This document shows positions 4,288-25,422 of a stretch of 26,422 nucleotides of DNA, piece by piece (the first letter of the stretch is position 1; each line of letters starts with the position of its first letter). Position numbers and translations under genes: made by a program. The stretch comes from a virus: positions 1 to 26,422 of the IMG/VR virus record IMGVR_UViG_3300042923_000955. One strand, written 5' to 3'. The notes beneath the pieces are model-generated. The model was not told where the DNA came from and ran no database searches. It saw only the letters and a program-made list of their open reading frames with translations.

Positions 4288-5820
4288 TTGACATCGAAAA
4301 TTATTAGTGGCGGATCGTCTGGATCTGTTCCTAAAGAATATATCAAAAAGAATGTGAGCATTGAGAAGAAAAGAACTCTAAAGTTTAAGTCTGCAGGAGG
4401 TTTTGATCAAAGAAGAGATTTGACCCAATTATCTCCACCATATGACATTGCTACTTTACGATCAATCACAGATATATCTGACATTCTGAATCAGTCAATT
4501 GAAGCATACGTAACAAACGTGGCTGGATTTGGTTTTGGTATACGTTACAAGGTTGACGACACCGAAGAAACAGCAGAAATGAAGGCGGAATGGAATCAAT
4601 TGGATACCCTTCTCAAAGAATTGTCCTTTGAACGTCCGCCGAAAGAAGTGATTGAGGAGGTCATTCGACACGTTGAAGAATGTGGGAATGGCTATATTGA
4701 AGTTATTCGTAATCTTAAAGGTGATGTTGTAGGAATTGATTCTGTAAAGCCTGAGTACATGACTGTTACCAAACTAAATAGAGTTATAAATGCGGACGGA
4801 TCAGAGATTAAGGTCCGCTATTTTGTTTTTCGTGATTCTATGGATGATTCTGTTAAAGAATCTGGAACGTGGTATAAAACCTATGGTGACCCTACTCCGT
4901 TGAATTCAAATGGAAGCGTGGGTTCTGAGGGGCAAGGAACAGCTACTGAAATAATTCACCTTAAAAATGGAGATTTTCAAGATCCTTATGGCAAGCCTCG
5001 CTGGGTAGGACCATTGATTAAAATACTCGGAAATCGCAAAGCTGACGAATTGAATTATCGATATTTTACTCAGGGAAGACATATTCCTCTTGCCATCACG
5101 CTAGAGAATGCGCAGCTGACTGAACAATCCGAAGCCACGTTACAGGCATATGCTAATGCAATTGGTGGGGAAGAAAATCAGCATAAGTTTTTATTGCTAG
5201 AAGCTGAAAAAGTAAGTCCTGCAGAAGAAGGGTTAGGATATGGGGAAGATAAATTCAAGCCAGCCATTAACATTGAGAAGCTAGCTGACATCTTACAAAA
5301 AGATGCTCTATTTCTTGAGTATGATGAGAACGTCATTGAATCAGTCCTCGGAGCATTCCGTTTGCCCCCAATTTATGTAGCAAGATCAAGCGACTATACA
5401 AGAGCTACTGCTGAGACTGCTAAAGAACTGACGGAAGAGCAAGTGTTCCAGCCTATGCGAGAATCTTACGATTGGCGTATTAATTCGCTTTTTAGGGAAT
5501 ATGAATTCAGGTATGTAGAAGTGTTTCTGAAATCATCCAATCTTGTAAATATGGAGGATGTTAAAGCGATTCTCACACCAGCTATCCAAGCAAATGCAGT
5601 CGCGCCAAATGATTTGAGGGATATTCTTTCAAAAGCCCTCAATAAGCCGCTAGAAGCTTTTGATGGAGAAGAGTACAATTATCCGCTTAATAGACAATCA
5701 TCGTCATCAGCATTTAATCTTGGTGAATTGGACATATCTAAAGCATACGGCGAAGGAGAAGTTAGTGAAGTTGCAGCAAGTATTCGTCGTATGATCCGGA
5801 GTGTGAAGGCAATTGAATGA
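4288..5820 (+). CDS. Portal protein, PBSX family
   Basis: 510 aa from TTG at 4288, supported by AGGAGGT at 4275-4281, 6 nt away. The family core is recognisable: DISDILNQSIEAYVTNVAGFGFG (near residue 62; key part NQSIEAYVTNVAGF), GNGYIEVIRN, IIHLKNGDFQDPYGKPRW, YFTQGRHIPLAI and LPPIYVARSSDYTRATAE around residue 357. The portal forms the dodecameric ring at the capsid vertex through which TerL pumps DNA and to which the connectors bind. It ends ATTGAATGA, and the next gene begins inside that sequence. Confidence 0.95.
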   Translation: MTSKIISGGSSGSVPKEYIKKNVSIEKKRTLKFKSAGGFDQRRDLTQLSPPYDIATLRSITDISDILNQSIEAYVTNVAGFGFGIRYKVDDTEETAEMKAEWNQLDTLLKELSFERPPKEVIEEVIRHVEECGNGYIEVIRNLKGDVVGIDSVKPEYMTVTKLNRVINADGSEIKVRYFVFRDSMDDSVKESGTWYKTYGDPTPLNSNGSVGSEGQGTATEIIHLKNGDFQDPYGKPRWVGPLIKILGNRKADELNYRYFTQGRHIPLAITLENAQLTEQSEATLQAYANAIGGEENQHKFLLLEAEKVSPAEEGLGYGEDKFKPAINIEKLADILQKDALFLEYDENVIESVLGAFRLPPIYVARSSDYTRATAETAKELTEEQVFQPMRESYDWRINSLFREYEFRYVEVFLKSSNLVNMEDVKAILTPAIQANAVAPNDLRDILSKALNKPLEAFDGEEYNYPLNRQSSSSAFNLGELDISKAYGEGEVSEVAASIRRMIRSVKAIE

Positions 5821-6631
5821 TGAAGAGTTAATCAAAGCCGCTTTACAGCTAAAAAAAGAAGAGGATGATGAACTGGCTAAGCTTCTAGAAAAAGCAGGCT
5901 TTTTATTTGTCCCAATATTGCTTACGTTCATCTTAAATTCAGAGGATAAGATGGATGAGACCTTGCAAATTGATTACGAGGAAGTATGGGAAAAGGTAAA
6001 AAAATTCGTAGAGAATCGGAAAAATAAACCTACCAAGTTATCTATAAAAATTATGCTCCGTGGACGATCATTCAAATCAAACATGGAAGAAAGTGTTATC
6101 CCAGAACTGAGAAAAGCTTTTTTTGGATTGTTTGATGAATTTAATGCCAAGTATGACGGATCAGAGGATTTTGATTATCAGACTAAACACTACCGAGACA
6201 TCGAAAAATGGCTTAGGAAGCTACCAAAAATAATGAACGTTACTACAGAGAACGCTCTTGTAGGAGTGATTCAAGAATCTTTTGATGAAGGTAAAGGCAT
6301 CCGATGGTTAGAAAGTAAGCTGTCTTCACTCCCTGAATTCTCTCGCAATCGTGCCAGAACAACTGCGATCACTGAGGGATTAAGGATGTACTCTGGCAGC
6401 CAGTATGAAGCGTTCATGCAAAACGATGCTGTTATAGGTATGACCTGGCGCCATACTCATGGCATCAAAGAACCGAGAAAAGGTCACGAGGCAATGGACG
6501 GTCAAACCATCGCTAAAGGCGAGTACTTCATCGTTAATGGTGAAAGTTGCCGCTATCCTCGTGACCCTATGTTATCTGCTAAGGAGTCGATACGTTGTCA
6601 TTGTTTAGTAGTGCCAGAAATCAGAATCTAG
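5813..6631 (+). CDS. Minor head protein, SPP1 gp7 / Mu F family
   Basis: 272 aa from a TTG at 5813 that overlaps the portal stop; GAAGG lies just upstream. The ATG at 5817 is out of frame. Residues 1-120 are charged and helical. The C-terminal MuF module (about 165-270) has ARTTAITEGLRMYSGSQYEAF, WRHTHGIKEPRKGHEAMDGQ, then YPRDPMLSAKESIRCHCLVV, with the usual final Cys-x-Cys-like pair (CHC). Such proteins bind the portal inside the prohead and may be ejected with the DNA. Its 3' end overlaps the 3' end of the antisense membrane gene by 27 bp. Confidence 0.9.
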   Translation: MNDEELIKAALQLKKEEDDELAKLLEKAGFLFVPILLTFILNSEDKMDETLQIDYEEVWEKVKKFVENRKNKPTKLSIKIMLRGRSFKSNMEESVIPELRKAFFGLFDEFNAKYDGSEDFDYQTKHYRDIEKWLRKLPKIMNVTTENALVGVIQESFDEGKGIRWLESKLSSLPEFSRNRARTTAITEGLRMYSGSQYEAFMQNDAVIGMTWRHTHGIKEPRKGHEAMDGQTIAKGEYFIVNGESCRYPRDPMLSAKESIRCHCLVVPEIRI

Positions 6632-6811
6632 TATTCTTTGAAAAACAAATTGTATTAACCCTATAAATAGAGTTAATAACAGGTTCTCAGGGCAATAATA
6701 TCCTATCGTGATAGGAATTAGTATTACGAGTAAATTTGCAATAAACAAATAGATGCTCATTCTTAATCTACTTTGTTTACGTTTACGCATTCTATGCCTG
6801 GTCAATCTCAT
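6605..6811 (-). CDS. Antisense 68-aa two-span membrane protein inside the head operon
   Basis: ATG at 6811-6809 on the minus strand, preceded by TGGAGGTGA at an ideal distance; TAA at 6607-6605. The product begins MRLTRHRMRKRKQSRLR (nine Arg/Lys in 17), then two hydrophobic spans, SIYLFIANLLVILIPITIG (19-37) and LLLTLFIGLIQFVF (44-57), ending DSDFWHY. It fills the only gap in the head operon (6632-6890) and opposes it. The ribosome site is locked in an 8-bp hairpin (6815-6836), and a 10-base segment upstream pairs with codons 41-44 (6839-6848 with 6683-6692). This layout resembles type I toxin mRNAs such as hok and fst, with late-operon RNA as a natural antisense partner. No family is recognised; a holin-like or superinfection role is also possible. 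Translation is inferred, not proven. Confidence 0.6.
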   Translation of the reverse strand: MRLTRHRMRKRKQSRLRMSIYLFIANLLVILIPITIGYYCPENLLLTLFIGLIQFVFQRILDSDFWHY

Positions 6812-6848
6812 GCTGTCACCTCCACTTAGAGGTAACCCCCCTGAGAAC
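6683..6848 (-). promoter_or_regulatory. Nested inverted repeats controlling the antisense gene
   Basis: GTTCTCAGGG (6683-6692) and CCCTGAGAAC (6839-6848) are perfect 10-bp complements that bracket most of the antisense gene. Just inside, GAGGTAAC (6829-6836) pairs with GTCACCTC (6815-6822) over a 6-nt loop; on the minus transcript this hides the GAGGTGA ribosome site. Because the sequence is also in the plus-strand leader of the protease gene, it can fold in both transcripts. Confidence 0.55.
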
Positions 6849-6890
6849 GAGTGGGGTGTCCCATATAAAAATTTGAAAGGTGGTGAGAAA

Positions 6891-7940
6891 ATGCGAAAAC
6901 TAGAAAACGTTCTTGTAACACATGTTTCATATGTGGATAAGGCGGCCAATAAGAAATCATTCTTTCTTACTAAGTCTGCCGAAGACCTAAAACCAAATTT
7001 TGAAACCGAAGTTAAGTTGGTTACTAAATCAGATGATCCACAAAAACTTGTATATGGTGTTGTTTATGAGCCTGATGTGGAAGATGTTCATGGAGATTTC
7101 ATGGATGCTGACACAATCGAGAAGGCTGCACATGGATTCATGGCGGATTATCAACAGATTGACAAACAGCACGATTTCACCACGAATGCTGGAAAAGTAG
7201 TAGAGAGTTATGTTGCCCCTGTTGATATGACTATCGGCGAAACCACAATCACAAAAGGAACTTGGGTGCTTGTCACTAAAGCTACTGACGAAATGTGGGA
7301 GTCAATCCAGAAAGGTGATTTCACAGGCTATTCATTAGCAGGAACCGCTCAGGTCGAAGATGTTCAGAAGCAGACTGCCGATAACTTTGAAAGAGGTAAA
7401 ACCTACCGGGATGTTAATGCGGCGATTGATGCATTCAGATCGGCCACTTGGTCAATTTTGGACAACTACACAGACAGCGATGCGGATAAAGTCGCCAGCA
7501 TTCAGTCGGAAATCGGCGAGTTATCCACACTTATCGGCACAATAAATACAACTAAATCAATTACCAAACAAGGACTAATCGAAACGGTTAAGTCCTTTTT
7601 TAGTACAAGTAAATCCGAGGAGGATGAAGAAATGACAGAAGAACAGTTAAAAAAAGCGCTCGGCGAAGCGCTGAAACCAGTAAACGATCGTTTATCAGCT
7701 TTGGAAAAAGGCGATAAATCAGATGAAAAACCAGAAACAGCGAATTCAGAAGCTAGCATTGAATTAGATTCTGATGCTATTGCTAAGGCTGTATCAGAAG
7801 CCGTGGCACCTTTGAATGCGAAGATTGAGAATCTTGAAAAATCTCGAATCAGCAACAATGCAGAACAAAATTACACAGAAACAGTTGAGAAATCGGTTGT
7901 ACCATCTTATGTGGACGCTGCTTTCCCAATTTCTGAATAA
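6891..7940 (+). CDS. XkdF-like prohead protease fused to scaffold
   Basis: 349 aa from ATG at 6891 (GGTGGTGA upstream); the longer open frame from 6753 is rejected because no ribosome site supports it. Residues 50-155 match the phage serine protease XkdF type: VYGVVYEPDVEDVHGDFMDAD (split here as VYGVVYEPDVE + DVHGDFMDAD), KQHDF with His94, and GDFTGYSLAGTA with Ser148, a plausible His/Ser pair. Residues 170-240 form a linker. From Met248 the protein is a Glu/Lys-rich helical scaffold (TEEQLKKALGEALKPVNDRL) that can also be made alone. It sits just before the major capsid gene, as prohead proteases and scaffolds do. Confidence 0.88.
   Translation: MRKLENVLVTHVSYVDKAANKKSFFLTKSAEDLKPNFETEVKLVTKSDDPQKLVYGVVYEPDVEDVHGDFMDADTIEKAAHGFMADYQQIDKQHDFTTNAGKVVESYVAPVDMTIGETTITKGTWVLVTKATDEMWESIQKGDFTGYSLAGTAQVEDVQKQTADNFERGKTYRDVNAAIDAFRSATWSILDNYTDSDADKVASIQSEIGELSTLIGTINTTKSITKQGLIETVKSFFSTSKSEEDEEMTEEQLKKALGEALKPVNDRLSALEKGDKSDEKPETANSEASIELDSDAIAKAVSEAVAPLNAKIENLEKSRISNNAEQNYTETVEKSVVPSYVDAAFPISE
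7632..7940 (+). CDS. Nested scaffold protein from an internal in-frame start
   Basis: ATG at 7632 is in frame with the protease (codon 248) and has GAGGAGG (7617-7623) 8 nt upstream, as strong as any ribosome site in the window. It would give a 102-aa acidic helical protein with SDAIAKAVSEAVAPLNAKIENLEK typical of a coiled-coil scaffold. Nested protease/scaffold genes are known, for example lambda C/Nu3. Internal initiation is inferred. Confidence 0.6.
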   Translation: MTEEQLKKALGEALKPVNDRLSALEKGDKSDEKPETANSEASIELDSDAIAKAVSEAVAPLNAKIENLEKSRISNNAEQNYTETVEKSVVPSYVDAAFPISE

Positions 7941-22679: not shown

Positions 22680-22807
22680 CATCATTTCTATTTAATAGAT
22701 ATTATTGATTAGAAAATCGTCATAAATTGGTTGAGTTTGATTAATAAAAGTTGTAATGTAGACTCATACCAACCAATCCAATTTTTCATTTGTTTACTCT
22801 CTTTGGG

Positions 22808-22838
22808 TCCACTCTATCATAACTAGAGTGGATTTTTT
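22808..22838 (+). terminator. Intrinsic terminator
   Basis: TCCACTCTA (22808-22816), 7-nt loop, TAGAGTGGA (22824-22832), TTTTTT. It lies immediately upstream of a promoter, so it separates the late operon from the tRNA unit. Confidence 0.8.
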
Positions 22839-22839
22839 G

Positions 22840-22868
22840 TTGAAATAAAAACTATGTTCTTGTAGAAT
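22840..22868 (+). promoter_or_regulatory. Promoter reading toward the tRNA gene
   Basis: TTGAAA (22840-22845), 17-bp spacer, TAGAAT (22863-22868). A transcript would start near 22875, pass two hairpins (22875-22894 and 22918-22938) and enter the tRNA at 22946. Confidence 0.65.
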
Positions 22869-22917
22869 GGAGTCATAGCCTTGACCGGGGCTATTTCATT
22901 TTATATCTTTTTTCAGG
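22863..22917 (+). repeat. Dispersed bipartite repeat, right copy
   Basis: TAGAATGGAGT (22863-22873), 33 bases, CTTTTTTCAGG (22907-22917), matching 1694-1748 in both 11-mers and in spacing. Here the first 11-mer contains the -10 box. Confidence 0.5.
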
Positions 22918-22944
22918 CCCACTCTCCTTGAGGGTGGGTTATTT
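22875..22944 (+). other. Two hairpins in the tRNA leader
   Basis: ATAGCC (22875-22880) with GGCTAT (22889-22894), followed by TTCATTTT; and CCCACTCT (22918-22925) with AGGGTGGG (22931-22938), followed by TTATTTT. Both look like weak terminators ahead of the tRNA. Confidence 0.5.
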
Positions 22945-22945
22945 T

Positions 22946-23019
22946 GTACCTTTAGCTCAGTTGGTTAGAGCAGACGGCTCATAACCGTCCGGTCGTAGGT
23001 TCGAATCCTACAAGGTACA
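22946..23019 (+). tRNA. tRNA with CAU anticodon (tRNA-Met, or tRNA-Ile2)
   Basis: 74-nt full cloverleaf: acceptor GTACCTT (22946-22952) with AAGGTAC (23012-23018), discriminator A; a normal D arm; anticodon stem GACGG/CCGTC around CTCATAA, anticodon at 22980-22982; T arm GTAGG-TTCGAAT-CCTAC. CCA is not encoded (A is followed by TAG). CAU could be elongator Met or lysidine-modified Ile. It may be phage-borne or a host tRNA beside the prophage; the missing CCA leans toward the former. Confidence 0.93.
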
Positions 23020-23028
23020 TAGAAGAAT

Positions 23029-23051
23029 CCCTTACTCTTTTTGAGTAGGGG
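23029..23051. terminator. Bidirectional terminator between tRNA and minus-strand operon
   Basis: CCCTTACTC (23029-23037), loop TTTTT, GAGTAGGGG (23043-23051), one wobble. It overlaps the last codons and stop of the convergent HEPN-like gene. Confidence 0.7.
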
Positions 23052-23628
23052 TATTTATATTAATTAGATGTGACGCATGGCTCATCAATTCTTTAGCAAA
23101 ATCCTTTTTGTTTATATTGATATTCACAGTCTTAAATTCATCATAATTGTTTGTAGAAAAGCCGTAAGAAGTAGAGTATTTTTCAAATGTAATATTAATT
23201 ATAAGCTTATCATCTTCAATGCCTACTAAGTTTTTATACTTAGTATTTATTTTTTCCTCTACAGTTCGATGTAAAATACTTCCTTGGTGGAATAATTTAC
23301 ATCTGATATTATATATAATGAAACCATCAAGTTGATTTATGTTTTGAAAAACATCATCATCGTCAATACCTTCAATATGAGGATTCTGATATTTAAATAT
23401 ATATTCGTTATACCACTTTATATATCTTTTACCTACAACACCTTTGTTTTTTTCTGTATCTTTTCGAAAATAAGGATAGTGATACTGTCCCATTAAATCA
23501 GGTATTGAAAGACTGCAAAAGAAAGCTGCGTCAATTGCTTCTTTTGCAAGTGCATCTTCAATAATGGATGCTAATTTTTTTATAGATTCTAATATCTCAA
23601 TGTCTTTAGAAGTCTTGGCTTTTTTCAT
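23032..23628 (-). CDS. HEPN-like protein with RX4H motif, candidate abortive-infection effector
   Basis: 198 aa, ATG after TAAGGAG, which overlaps the TAA of the lipoprotein gene, so it is translated in tandem with it. The N-terminal half is helical (DIEILESIKKLASIIEDALAKEAIDAAFF, shortened: DIEILESIKKLAS), with FFCSLSIPDLMGQYHYPYF and GKRYIKWYNEYIFKY. IIYNIRCKLFHQGS carries Arg109-x4-His114, the RX4-6H pattern of HEPN domains, many of which are toxin or defence ribonucleases. The C-terminal half is beta-rich (KLIINITFEKYSTSYGFST). It is AT-rich compared with the late genes. The HEPN call rests on one motif and its helical context; catalysis is not shown. Confidence 0.75.
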   Translation of the reverse strand: MKKAKTSKDIEILESIKKLASIIEDALAKEAIDAAFFCSLSIPDLMGQYHYPYFRKDTEKNKGVVGKRYIKWYNEYIFKYQNPHIEGIDDDDVFQNINQLDGFIIYNIRCKLFHQGSILHRTVEEKINTKYKNLVGIEDDKLIINITFEKYSTSYGFSTNNYDEFKTVNININKKDFAKELMSHASHLININTPTQKE

Positions 23629-23638
23629 AATAATCTCC

Positions 23639-24808
23639 TTATTTCACTCTTAAAGTATCGCCCGGGTACAACATGTAATTGTTCGGATCGATGCCGTTTA
23701 ATTCATAAAGTGTTTCCACTGAAATACCAACACGTGCAGCTATTTCTGGAGGACCTTCACCAGCTTGTACGGTTGTATATTCTTCAACAGATTGAGATGG
23801 AGCACTATAACTCTCGTATGTTTGTTCCTGACTACTTACTGGAGGTTCAGCAGGTTGGACGCTTTCTTCCGAATAGACAGCAACACTTTCTGATGAGTAA
23901 GTTTGCGATTCTGCGGCAGTAGAACCAAATGGTGATTCTGTTAATTCCAAAGAAGCCGCCTTAGCATATTTTTCCACCAATTCTTGCGGTAGTTGCCCAT
24001 TAAATTGCATCAACACTAGTTCATCTTCGTTAACAGCAGTGTAGGAGAACAGCATTGCTGAATCTTTTCCAAGATCATCATAATATTTTTTAGTCGCTTT
24101 TAAGTCATCTACATTATCAAAAGTTAGTAAGCGAGCGTTTTGCTGCTCTTCTTCGATATCAGTTTCAATTAAAGAAAATATTTTCGCGCTTGTAGCCGAC
24201 ATAGGGGCAATGCCAAAATCTTCTTTAGTCATATCCCGTGGGTTGTAAACTACAAGTGATTGCTGAGTGAATGTCTCAATGATATCATCCAAATCAGTGG
24301 CTGCTTGTTCAGAGGATGAAGTTGTTTGCTCTGTGGATGATGAGCTTGATTCTGGTTCCTTATTCTTCGTGTATGGCTTCAAAATAAGCTTTTGCGCATC
24401 TGAATCGTCTTTATTCTTTTTTTCGTCCGGTGTGAACACTATATTTTCATCGTCTTTTGAAACAATGTAATAAACAAAAGCGTCTTCATCATCTGTATCT
24501 TGAATTTTGATCGTGTCTTCTTCTAAAACGTACTCAAGTTTATAGCTCATTTGATCTATGAGTTGTTTTGCTAAATCCTCACCTAATTGTTCCCATTCAT
24601 CTTTTGCATTCGATGTCATGCTGTCAGTATCAACAGATACAGACATTATGTGATCAGAGAAAGATAAAATTAAATTTGGTTCATCTTCGCTCGAAGATTC
24701 TGCAATCCAATCATTTGCTTTCAAATCTTCTGTTGTAATCTTTTTGCCACAAGCGGTTAGAAAGAAAATAGCAATTACAGCAAAAACACCTAAACTAATC
24801 TTTTTCAT
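23639..24808 (-). CDS. Surface lipoprotein with C-terminal LysM
   Basis: 389 aa, ATG after AGGGGGAT. A lipoprotein signal peptide (MKKISLGVFAVIAIFFLTAC, lipobox LTAC, Cys20) anchors it outside the membrane. Residues 22-145 form an acidic beta-rich domain (NLILSFSDHIMSVSVDTDSM). A Ser-rich linker (about 148-168) precedes a second domain with KIFSLIETDIEEEQQNARLLTF and ELVLMQFNGQLPQELVEKYA. A second Ser/Glu-rich linker (300-340) leads to a LysM (VQAGEGPPEIAARVGI, LYELNGIDPNNYMLYPGDTL) that binds peptidoglycan glycans. Lysogen-expressed lipoproteins of Gram-positive phages (Ltp of TP-J34) block DNA entry of related phages; that is the leading idea here, not a proven one. Confidence 0.88.
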   Translation of the reverse strand: MKKISLGVFAVIAIFFLTACGKKITTEDLKANDWIAESSSEDEPNLILSFSDHIMSVSVDTDSMTSNAKDEWEQLGEDLAKQLIDQMSYKLEYVLEEDTIKIQDTDDEDAFVYYIVSKDDENIVFTPDEKKNKDDSDAQKLILKPYTKNKEPESSSSSTEQTTSSSEQAATDLDDIIETFTQQSLVVYNPRDMTKEDFGIAPMSATSAKIFSLIETDIEEEQQNARLLTFDNVDDLKATKKYYDDLGKDSAMLFSYTAVNEDELVLMQFNGQLPQELVEKYAKAASLELTESPFGSTAAESQTYSSESVAVYSEESVQPAEPPVSSQEQTYESYSAPSQSVEEYTTVQAGEGPPEIAARVGISVETLYELNGIDPNNYMLYPGDTLRVK

Positions 24809-24824
24809 GTTTATCCCCCTAAAC

Positions 24825-25025
24825 CTATTTGAAAATATCCCATATACTAAACGTTGTTTTTCTATAAATCTTTGTTTTTGTTGATTTTATAGGTGATTTA
24901 GCAAATCCCATACCTTTCTTTCCATAACCGGTGATTACCGCTTTTTTGATTTTCCGTTTTGCTTTCCCAGTAGTTCTAGCCTTAAAACTTTTCTTAACAC
25001 TCGGTTTTCTAAGACCTACTTTCAT
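24825..25025 (-). CDS. Small very basic protein (KARTTGK type)
   Basis: 66 aa, ATG after AGAGGTT. About one third of residues are Lys or Arg; it begins MKVGLRKPSVKKSFKARTTG and contains GYGKKGMGFAKSPIKSTKTK and a hydrophobic end FSIWDIFK. Similar basic sequences occur as free proteins or as N-termini of larger proteins in low-GC Firmicutes and their phages; the function is unknown to me. It is 16 bp upstream of the lipoprotein gene in the same direction and is probably the first gene of that operon. RNA or DNA binding is possible from charge alone. Confidence 0.75.
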   Translation of the reverse strand: MKVGLRKPSVKKSFKARTTGKAKRKIKKAVITGYGKKGMGFAKSPIKSTKTKIYRKTTFSIWDIFK

Positions 25026-25054
25026 TTTTTAACCTCTTTTCATATTTTTATTCT

Positions 25055-25060
25055 ATTGTA
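25055..25060 (-). promoter_or_regulatory. -10 box of the lipoprotein-HEPN operon
   Basis: On the minus strand TACAAT lies about 30 nt before the 66-aa gene. The -35 is not convincing, and the upstream sequence is the terminator of the previous operon. Confidence 0.35.
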
Positions 25061-25062
25061 TC

Positions 25063-25096
25063 AAAAAAGCCCTATCATAAGATAGAACTTTTTTTC
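25063..25096 (-). terminator. Terminator of the SOS-type operon
   Basis: On the minus strand AAGTTCTATC, loop TTAT, GATAGGGCTT, then T's; the stem has 10 pairs with two wobbles. T's also follow on the plus strand. Confidence 0.7.
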
Positions 25097-25137
25097 TGTG
25101 GTGGCTATACTGTTCTTGCACGATATAAGGTAGTCAA

Positions 25138-25422
25138 TTATTTTGAAGAGCTAGGCCCGACCACCGAGTTATTATTTAGTGATTCAAATTCTATCATGAT
25201 TTTTGTCTTACCAATCACCGAATACTTACGGACTACAAACTGTTTCCTACAATTATATTCACCAGCAACGACAATTCTCATATCTTCATCGACATCTGCT
25301 AAAAAGTTCAAACTATGTGCAACAATTAAGCAGTTCACTCCATCAAGCGAGAATCGCACCAAAGGGGTCTTGCTCATCTCCAATATACGTATCTTTGATA
25401 CATAACCTTTCATCGATTTCAT
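25138..25422 (-). CDS. Small OB-fold-like protein, last gene of the SOS-type operon
   Basis: 94 aa from the ATG at 25422, chosen because TGGAGG lies 8 nt upstream; a longer frame to 25449 lacks such a site. The beta-rich run KGYVSKIRILEMSKTPLVRFSLDG, NCLIVAHSLNFLADVDEDMRIVVAGEY and FVVRKYSVIG looks like a five-stranded OB fold, as in small single-strand-DNA-binding proteins; this is a judgement from strand pattern only. It overlaps the preceding gene by 80 nt in another frame, so the two are surely co-expressed. Confidence 0.7.
   Translation of the reverse strand: MKSMKGYVSKIRILEMSKTPLVRFSLDGVNCLIVAHSLNFLADVDEDMRIVVAGEYNCRKQFVVRKYSVIGKTKIMIEFESLNNNSVVGPSSSK

Follow-up and report, generated by a model that had tools for sequence, protein, structure and literature searches.

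Why should a phage head operon carry, on its opposite strand, a gene for a small membrane protein? The window studied here is the whole of a 26.4-kb virus record whose sequence relatives are Enterococcus phages and prophages, among them by name phage EG-TP1 (E. gallinarum) and relatives from E. avium; lactococcal phages are more distant. Its plus-strand genes between 2557 and 22514 encode the small and large terminase subunits, a portal, a head morphogenesis protein (Phage_Mu_F), an XkdF-type protease, a virion structural protein, a tape measure, a holin and an endolysin. Between the head morphogenesis and protease genes runs an antisense frame of 68 codons (Table 1), the last five codons and stop of which are contained in the head-morphogenesis gene.

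A first-pass annotation had described this frame as encoding a two-span, Arg-rich membrane protein directed against the head operon. The description is confirmed by the open frame itself (6811..6605), and the membrane topology is supported by hydropathy, which places the hydrophobic spans at about residues 18–39 and 43–61, and by a structure model of low-to-moderate confidence (pLDDT 75), a helical hairpin that agrees with the two spans. The same annotation had suggested, as an inference, that the gene works as a type I toxin. From the analysis below, the 68-aa gene looks like optional cargo for a dormant prophage rather than a proven toxin.

Table 1. Features at the head-morphogenesis/protease junction of the window, and antisense cargoes at the same junction in close relatives.
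Feature	Position or record	Strand	Remarks
Head-morphogenesis gene (Phage_Mu_F)	5813..6631	+	Runs towards the antisense frame and overlaps its end
XkdF-type head maturation protease gene	6891..7940	+	ATG at 6891
Insert, 245 nt	6622..6866		Head-morphogenesis/head-protease junction; from BLAST boundaries, junction sequences and collinearity with G436
68-aa antisense frame	6605..6811	-	ATG start, 68 aa and stop; Arg/Lys-rich N-terminus, two hydrophobic spans
Downstream arm CCCTGAGAAC of long-range pairing	6683..6692	-	Third base of codon 40 through codon 43
Ribosome-site hairpin	6815..6836	-	8 pairs, one G.U; opening cost 9.9 kcal/mol
Ribosome-binding site GGAGGTGA	6816..6823	-	4 nt before ATG of the 68-aa frame
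Possible 12-codon leader frame (MGHPTRSQGGYL)	6826..6864	-	3' part of 6960..6826 frame; read from sequence
Upstream arm GTTCTCAGGG of 10-bp long-range pairing	6839..6848	-	
Weak promoter-like pair, TTCTCA (6889-6884) - 16 nt - TATATG (6867-6862)	6862..6889	-	Not above chance in consensus scan
Antisense cargo, 173 aa	L014, L015, L023		
Antisense cargo, ~200 aa	L012		
Antisense cargo, 140 aa	L018		
Antisense cargo, 72 aa, and possible 54-aa frame	L021		

An optional insert at the head-morphogenesis/protease junction

In BLAST comparisons, homology to relatives ends sharply at 6621 and resumes at 6867. The 17.7 kb between 711 and 18461 of the window are collinear with one relative, G436, at 95–96% identity, and the insert is the only length difference within them (245 versus 4 nt). 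An empty junction of 4–7 nt was found in 14 close relatives, which are mostly database contigs, some of them near-identical. Antibiotic induction had yielded one of them, EG-TP1, and the insert is therefore dispensable. At the same place, six further close relatives hold four unrelated inserts, each of which contains a gene running against the head operon, so that close relatives have the junction either without an insert or with an unrelated one. With 14 empty junctions and six that hold four unrelated antisense inserts, we regard the junction as a hotspot for antisense accessory genes. This comparison among relatives, drawn from sequence, is the key new fact about the locus. Among less closely related phages, the junction is either short or occupied by small sense frames having ribosome sites. 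Taken together, the filled and empty relatives and the distant sense frames make the junction a general insertion point, whose enterococcal cargo is antisense.

Three of the four other insert types encode a predicted membrane span. A PADLOC search of these other cargoes gave no credible match to a defence family. The cargo of L012 has a relative in phrog_9607, which in phage Cormatin lies in a cluster opposite the replication genes and beside a transcriptional regulator; we have taken this cluster as the lysogeny side of that phage.

A transposon or MITE was considered as the source of the insert and rejected: the ends carry no inverted repeats (there are internal ones only), and the flanking edges vary among the inserts. 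Separately, two of the unrelated antisense inserts have an inverted repeat in common, GGCAAGTNNTCTGCC (minus strand, L018:4230-4300 and L021:380-450), placed downstream of the -10 box and ahead of the ribosome site in one copy per record, and it looks like an operator for a common regulator. As an operator common to all the antisense genes it was discarded, being found in L018 and L021/L053 only and in none of five other records searched. It is not visible by eye in the insert of the window, which lay outside the records of the motif search.

Two further observations concern variable sequence. Three of the more distant phages, two of them apparently lactococcal (L057 and L060), have at the junction a related sense gene of 59–60 aa with its own ribosome site (L057:1619-1798, L060:1619-1798 and L074:1619-1801). 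In the window itself there is a second variable region at 22722-25171, about 2.4 kb long versus 86 nt in G436, and its minus-strand genes include one for a LysM-ended protein (23639-24808, phrog_37326).

The 68-codon frame as a probable gene

Does the frame encode a functional protein? The insert might instead be a structured RNA, or imported DNA in decay that contains the frame incidentally, and we hold this to be possible but rather unlikely. In synonymous codon usage the frame is foreign to the phage: its value of -0.078 is lower than in any of 148 windows taken from the phage's own genes (mean 0.048), and the other antisense cargoes are likewise low. The stop is outside the insert, in host-gene sequence, and needs A6607, which is T in 12 of the 12 relatives compared. 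The minus RNA is strongly folded, and much of the extra stability resides within the frame itself, where one of 300 synonymous shuffles was as stable.

Searches for homologues of the frame returned weak matches only, many of them with internal stops, which we took as chance; the searches comprised tblastn against phages and plasmids, a peptide-pattern scan of viral contigs, and a survey of 20 nearest-genus and 395 order genomes. No Pfam, PHROGs, NCBIfam or PADLOC family was assigned to the protein, known exclusion families included, and a fold search of its model against viral structures gave nothing at E <= 0.001. The lack of a homologue fits decaying or non-coding DNA. A structured RNA, on the other hand, finds no match in Rfam.

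Against an incidental frame stand the length of the open stretch (shuffle p = 0.004), a perfect and ideally spaced ribosome site, and a coherent membrane topology; every other filled junction, moreover, carries an antisense gene. A real gene is favoured by the openness, the well-spaced ribosome site and the hydrophobic spans. As to the stop, the T-to-A change at 6607 (window 6605-6610) creates it and at the same time exchanges a Phe of the head protein for Leu; the substitution may be a passenger.

Folding of the minus-strand RNA

That the ribosome site is enclosed in an 8-bp stem, as had been annotated, was borne out. The arms are GTTACCTC (6836-6829), just upstream of the ribosome site, and GAGGTGAC (6822-6815), and the bases of GGAGGTGA have an unpaired probability of about 0.1% each, save for the first (12.5%). 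The pattern of this closed site, GGTTACCTCNNNNNGGAGGTGAC, had no match in viral contigs. The long-range pairing that had been described between the 10 bases upstream and codons 41–44 is likewise present as a perfect 10-bp complement of GTTCTCAGGG, but its real partner at 6683-6692 covers the third base of codon 40 and all of codons 41–43. Shuffling dinucleotides produced a perfect leader-frame match of at least 10 bp by chance in 9 of 2000 trials, and shuffling codons did so in 2 of 2000. For the whole minus RNA, folding gave z = -4.1 to -4.3; the 22 sense genes of the window have a mean of -0.93 and a minimum of -2.63, and the four other antisense inserts range from -0.9 to +0.75.

Could this be a type I toxin-like cassette, in which a 68-aa membrane toxin is translated from an mRNA kept inert by its folded leader, and an RNA of the opposite strand, either read-through of the late operon or a small local transcript, serves as antitoxin? 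Its attractions are the closed ribosome site, the leader-frame pairing beyond chance, and an RNA that is a structural outlier with respect both to the phage's genes and to the other junction inserts. Prophage type I toxins are known, such as txpA and yonT (PMC3531473), and a plus-strand TTGAAA-18-TATAAA at 6638-6667 could start an antisense RNA. We nevertheless consider this explanation improbable. Membrane type I toxins are generally shorter than 60 aa with one helix (PMC8309996), and the present protein has 68 aa and two spans. The plus-strand promoter is a consensus match only, and none stands out from chance as a promoter for an antitoxin RNA; a search of both strands of 6300-7300 gave no intrinsic terminator. 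The other inserts at the junction have no such structure, and two ordinary late genes of the window have ribosome sites as tightly closed as this one.

These two are the sense genes 11617 and 15487, with opening costs of 9.4 and 13.0 kcal/mol, and their sites are possibly opened by translational coupling. Since they match or exceed the 9.9 kcal/mol of the antisense gene, closure of the ribosome site alone is nothing unusual, and in a phage mRNA it is by itself no sign of a toxin.

The lock also behaves otherwise than in the toxin mRNAs. The ribosome site is equally closed in every prefix from 90 nt to the full-length RNA, which indicates that the lock is local and is not switched by the long-range pair. 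Because the lock forms without the 3' part of the RNA, 3' processing would not open it. The distal arm of the long-range pair lies in the middle of the frame, away from the mRNA 3' end. Of the features expected of a type I system, then, the closed site is present; a product below 60 aa with one helix is not, nor is a 5'-3' pairing that 3' processing opens. The claim that exactly the two devices of hok and fst are used here is not supported, given a local lock, a mid-frame distal arm, the missing terminator, and a protein of more than 60 aa with two spans.

A strong local lock needs an opener, because in aapA3 the toxin is no longer made when mutations render such local hairpins more stable (PMC6733600), a result that also counts against the toxin reading. 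One candidate opener is the 12-codon leader frame (6864-6826). Its UAA forms the loop of the ribosome-site hairpin, so that translating it would unwind the upstream arm of each structure. The leader frame has no ribosome site of its own, and we therefore treat its translation as a possibility only. A bolder variant makes the late operon itself the antitoxin or off-switch of a self-locked, membrane-active peptide gene. Such a gene would be active in the lysogen or once the prophage is lost, and translation of the leader frame might unlock it; we think this very improbable.

Proposed expression in the lysogen and comparison with known systems

The explanation that we favour, and think probable, is that the insert is an accessory ('moron') cassette at a recurrent hotspot, with a two-span membrane protein that is expressed in the lysogen and opposed by late transcription. 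The cassette is present or absent among collinear relatives, and unrelated cargoes of the same orientation are found at the junction. With no terminator in 6300-7300, we claim the position and behaviour of a moron and not the classical promoter-gene-terminator unit. A published prophage transcriptomics study describes a position antisense to lytic genes as characteristic of moron loci (PMC7067206).

How might such a cassette work? The weak promoter-like pair at its right edge would allow a low level of transcription while the late operon is silent, as it is in the lysogen; the insert of L012 has a better pair, TTCTCA-16-TATAAT, at the same offset. The tightly folded leader would keep translation low. 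The protein would act at the cell membrane, and its most plausible role is superinfection exclusion or another membrane function that protects the lysogen. Once the prophage is induced, late transcription running across the cassette would oppose the gene through polymerase collision and antisense RNA; in phage noncontiguous operons, reciprocal control through collision and double-stranded RNA has been described (PMC11087260). Small membrane proteins for superinfection exclusion are known in long-tailed phages, namely HK97 gp15, Sie2009 and TP-J34 Ltp (PMC10883804), and superinfection exclusion is our leading guess for the 68-aa protein, one made without any homology.

The first-pass view that the gene is silenced in the late phase and available in the lysogen thus survives in part. 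The antisense arrangement fits it, and it is strengthened by the fact that every filled junction in close relatives carries an antisense gene; the toxin-antitoxin part is not established. More generally, unrelated antisense genes have repeatedly been swapped at one precise head-operon junction of enterococcal phages. Such genes tend to be missed by annotation pipelines since they are short and antisense, and the junction offers a simple route to candidate lysogen-expressed (exclusion or defence) genes.

With txpA/RatA, hok/Sok and aapA3/IsoA3 the locus has in common a small hydrophobic product, a closed ribosome site and long-range pairing in the mRNA. It differs from them in a product of 68 aa with two spans, a pairing arm inside the frame and a lock that forms without the 3' part; neither a terminator nor a dedicated antitoxin RNA was recognised at the frame. 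HK97 gp15, Sie2009 and TP-J34 Ltp (PMC10883804) are also small membrane morons of long-tailed temperate phages, whereas the protein of the insert is only predicted and no sequence relation to them was found. The tha/ith locus of S. aureus phage 80alpha (PMC11087260) also has an antisense gene nested in an operon, with opposition by collision and double-stranded RNA. There, however, induction raises ith, which lies in a cI-controlled operon; the present gene is nested in the late operon and should be lowered. Closer in arrangement are the antisense moron loci such as STMMW_20121 of ST64B (PMC7067206), which are likewise optional, directed against the lytic operon and absent from close relatives; the present junction, by contrast, holds at least five unrelated cargoes in close relatives, and expression here is predicted. 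The defence hotspots of P2 and P4 (PMC9122126) also place unrelated cargoes of a single or a few genes at one conserved junction. The enterococcal cargoes differ from those in that they match no defence family, they lie in the head operon of siphoviruses, and all of them are antisense to it.
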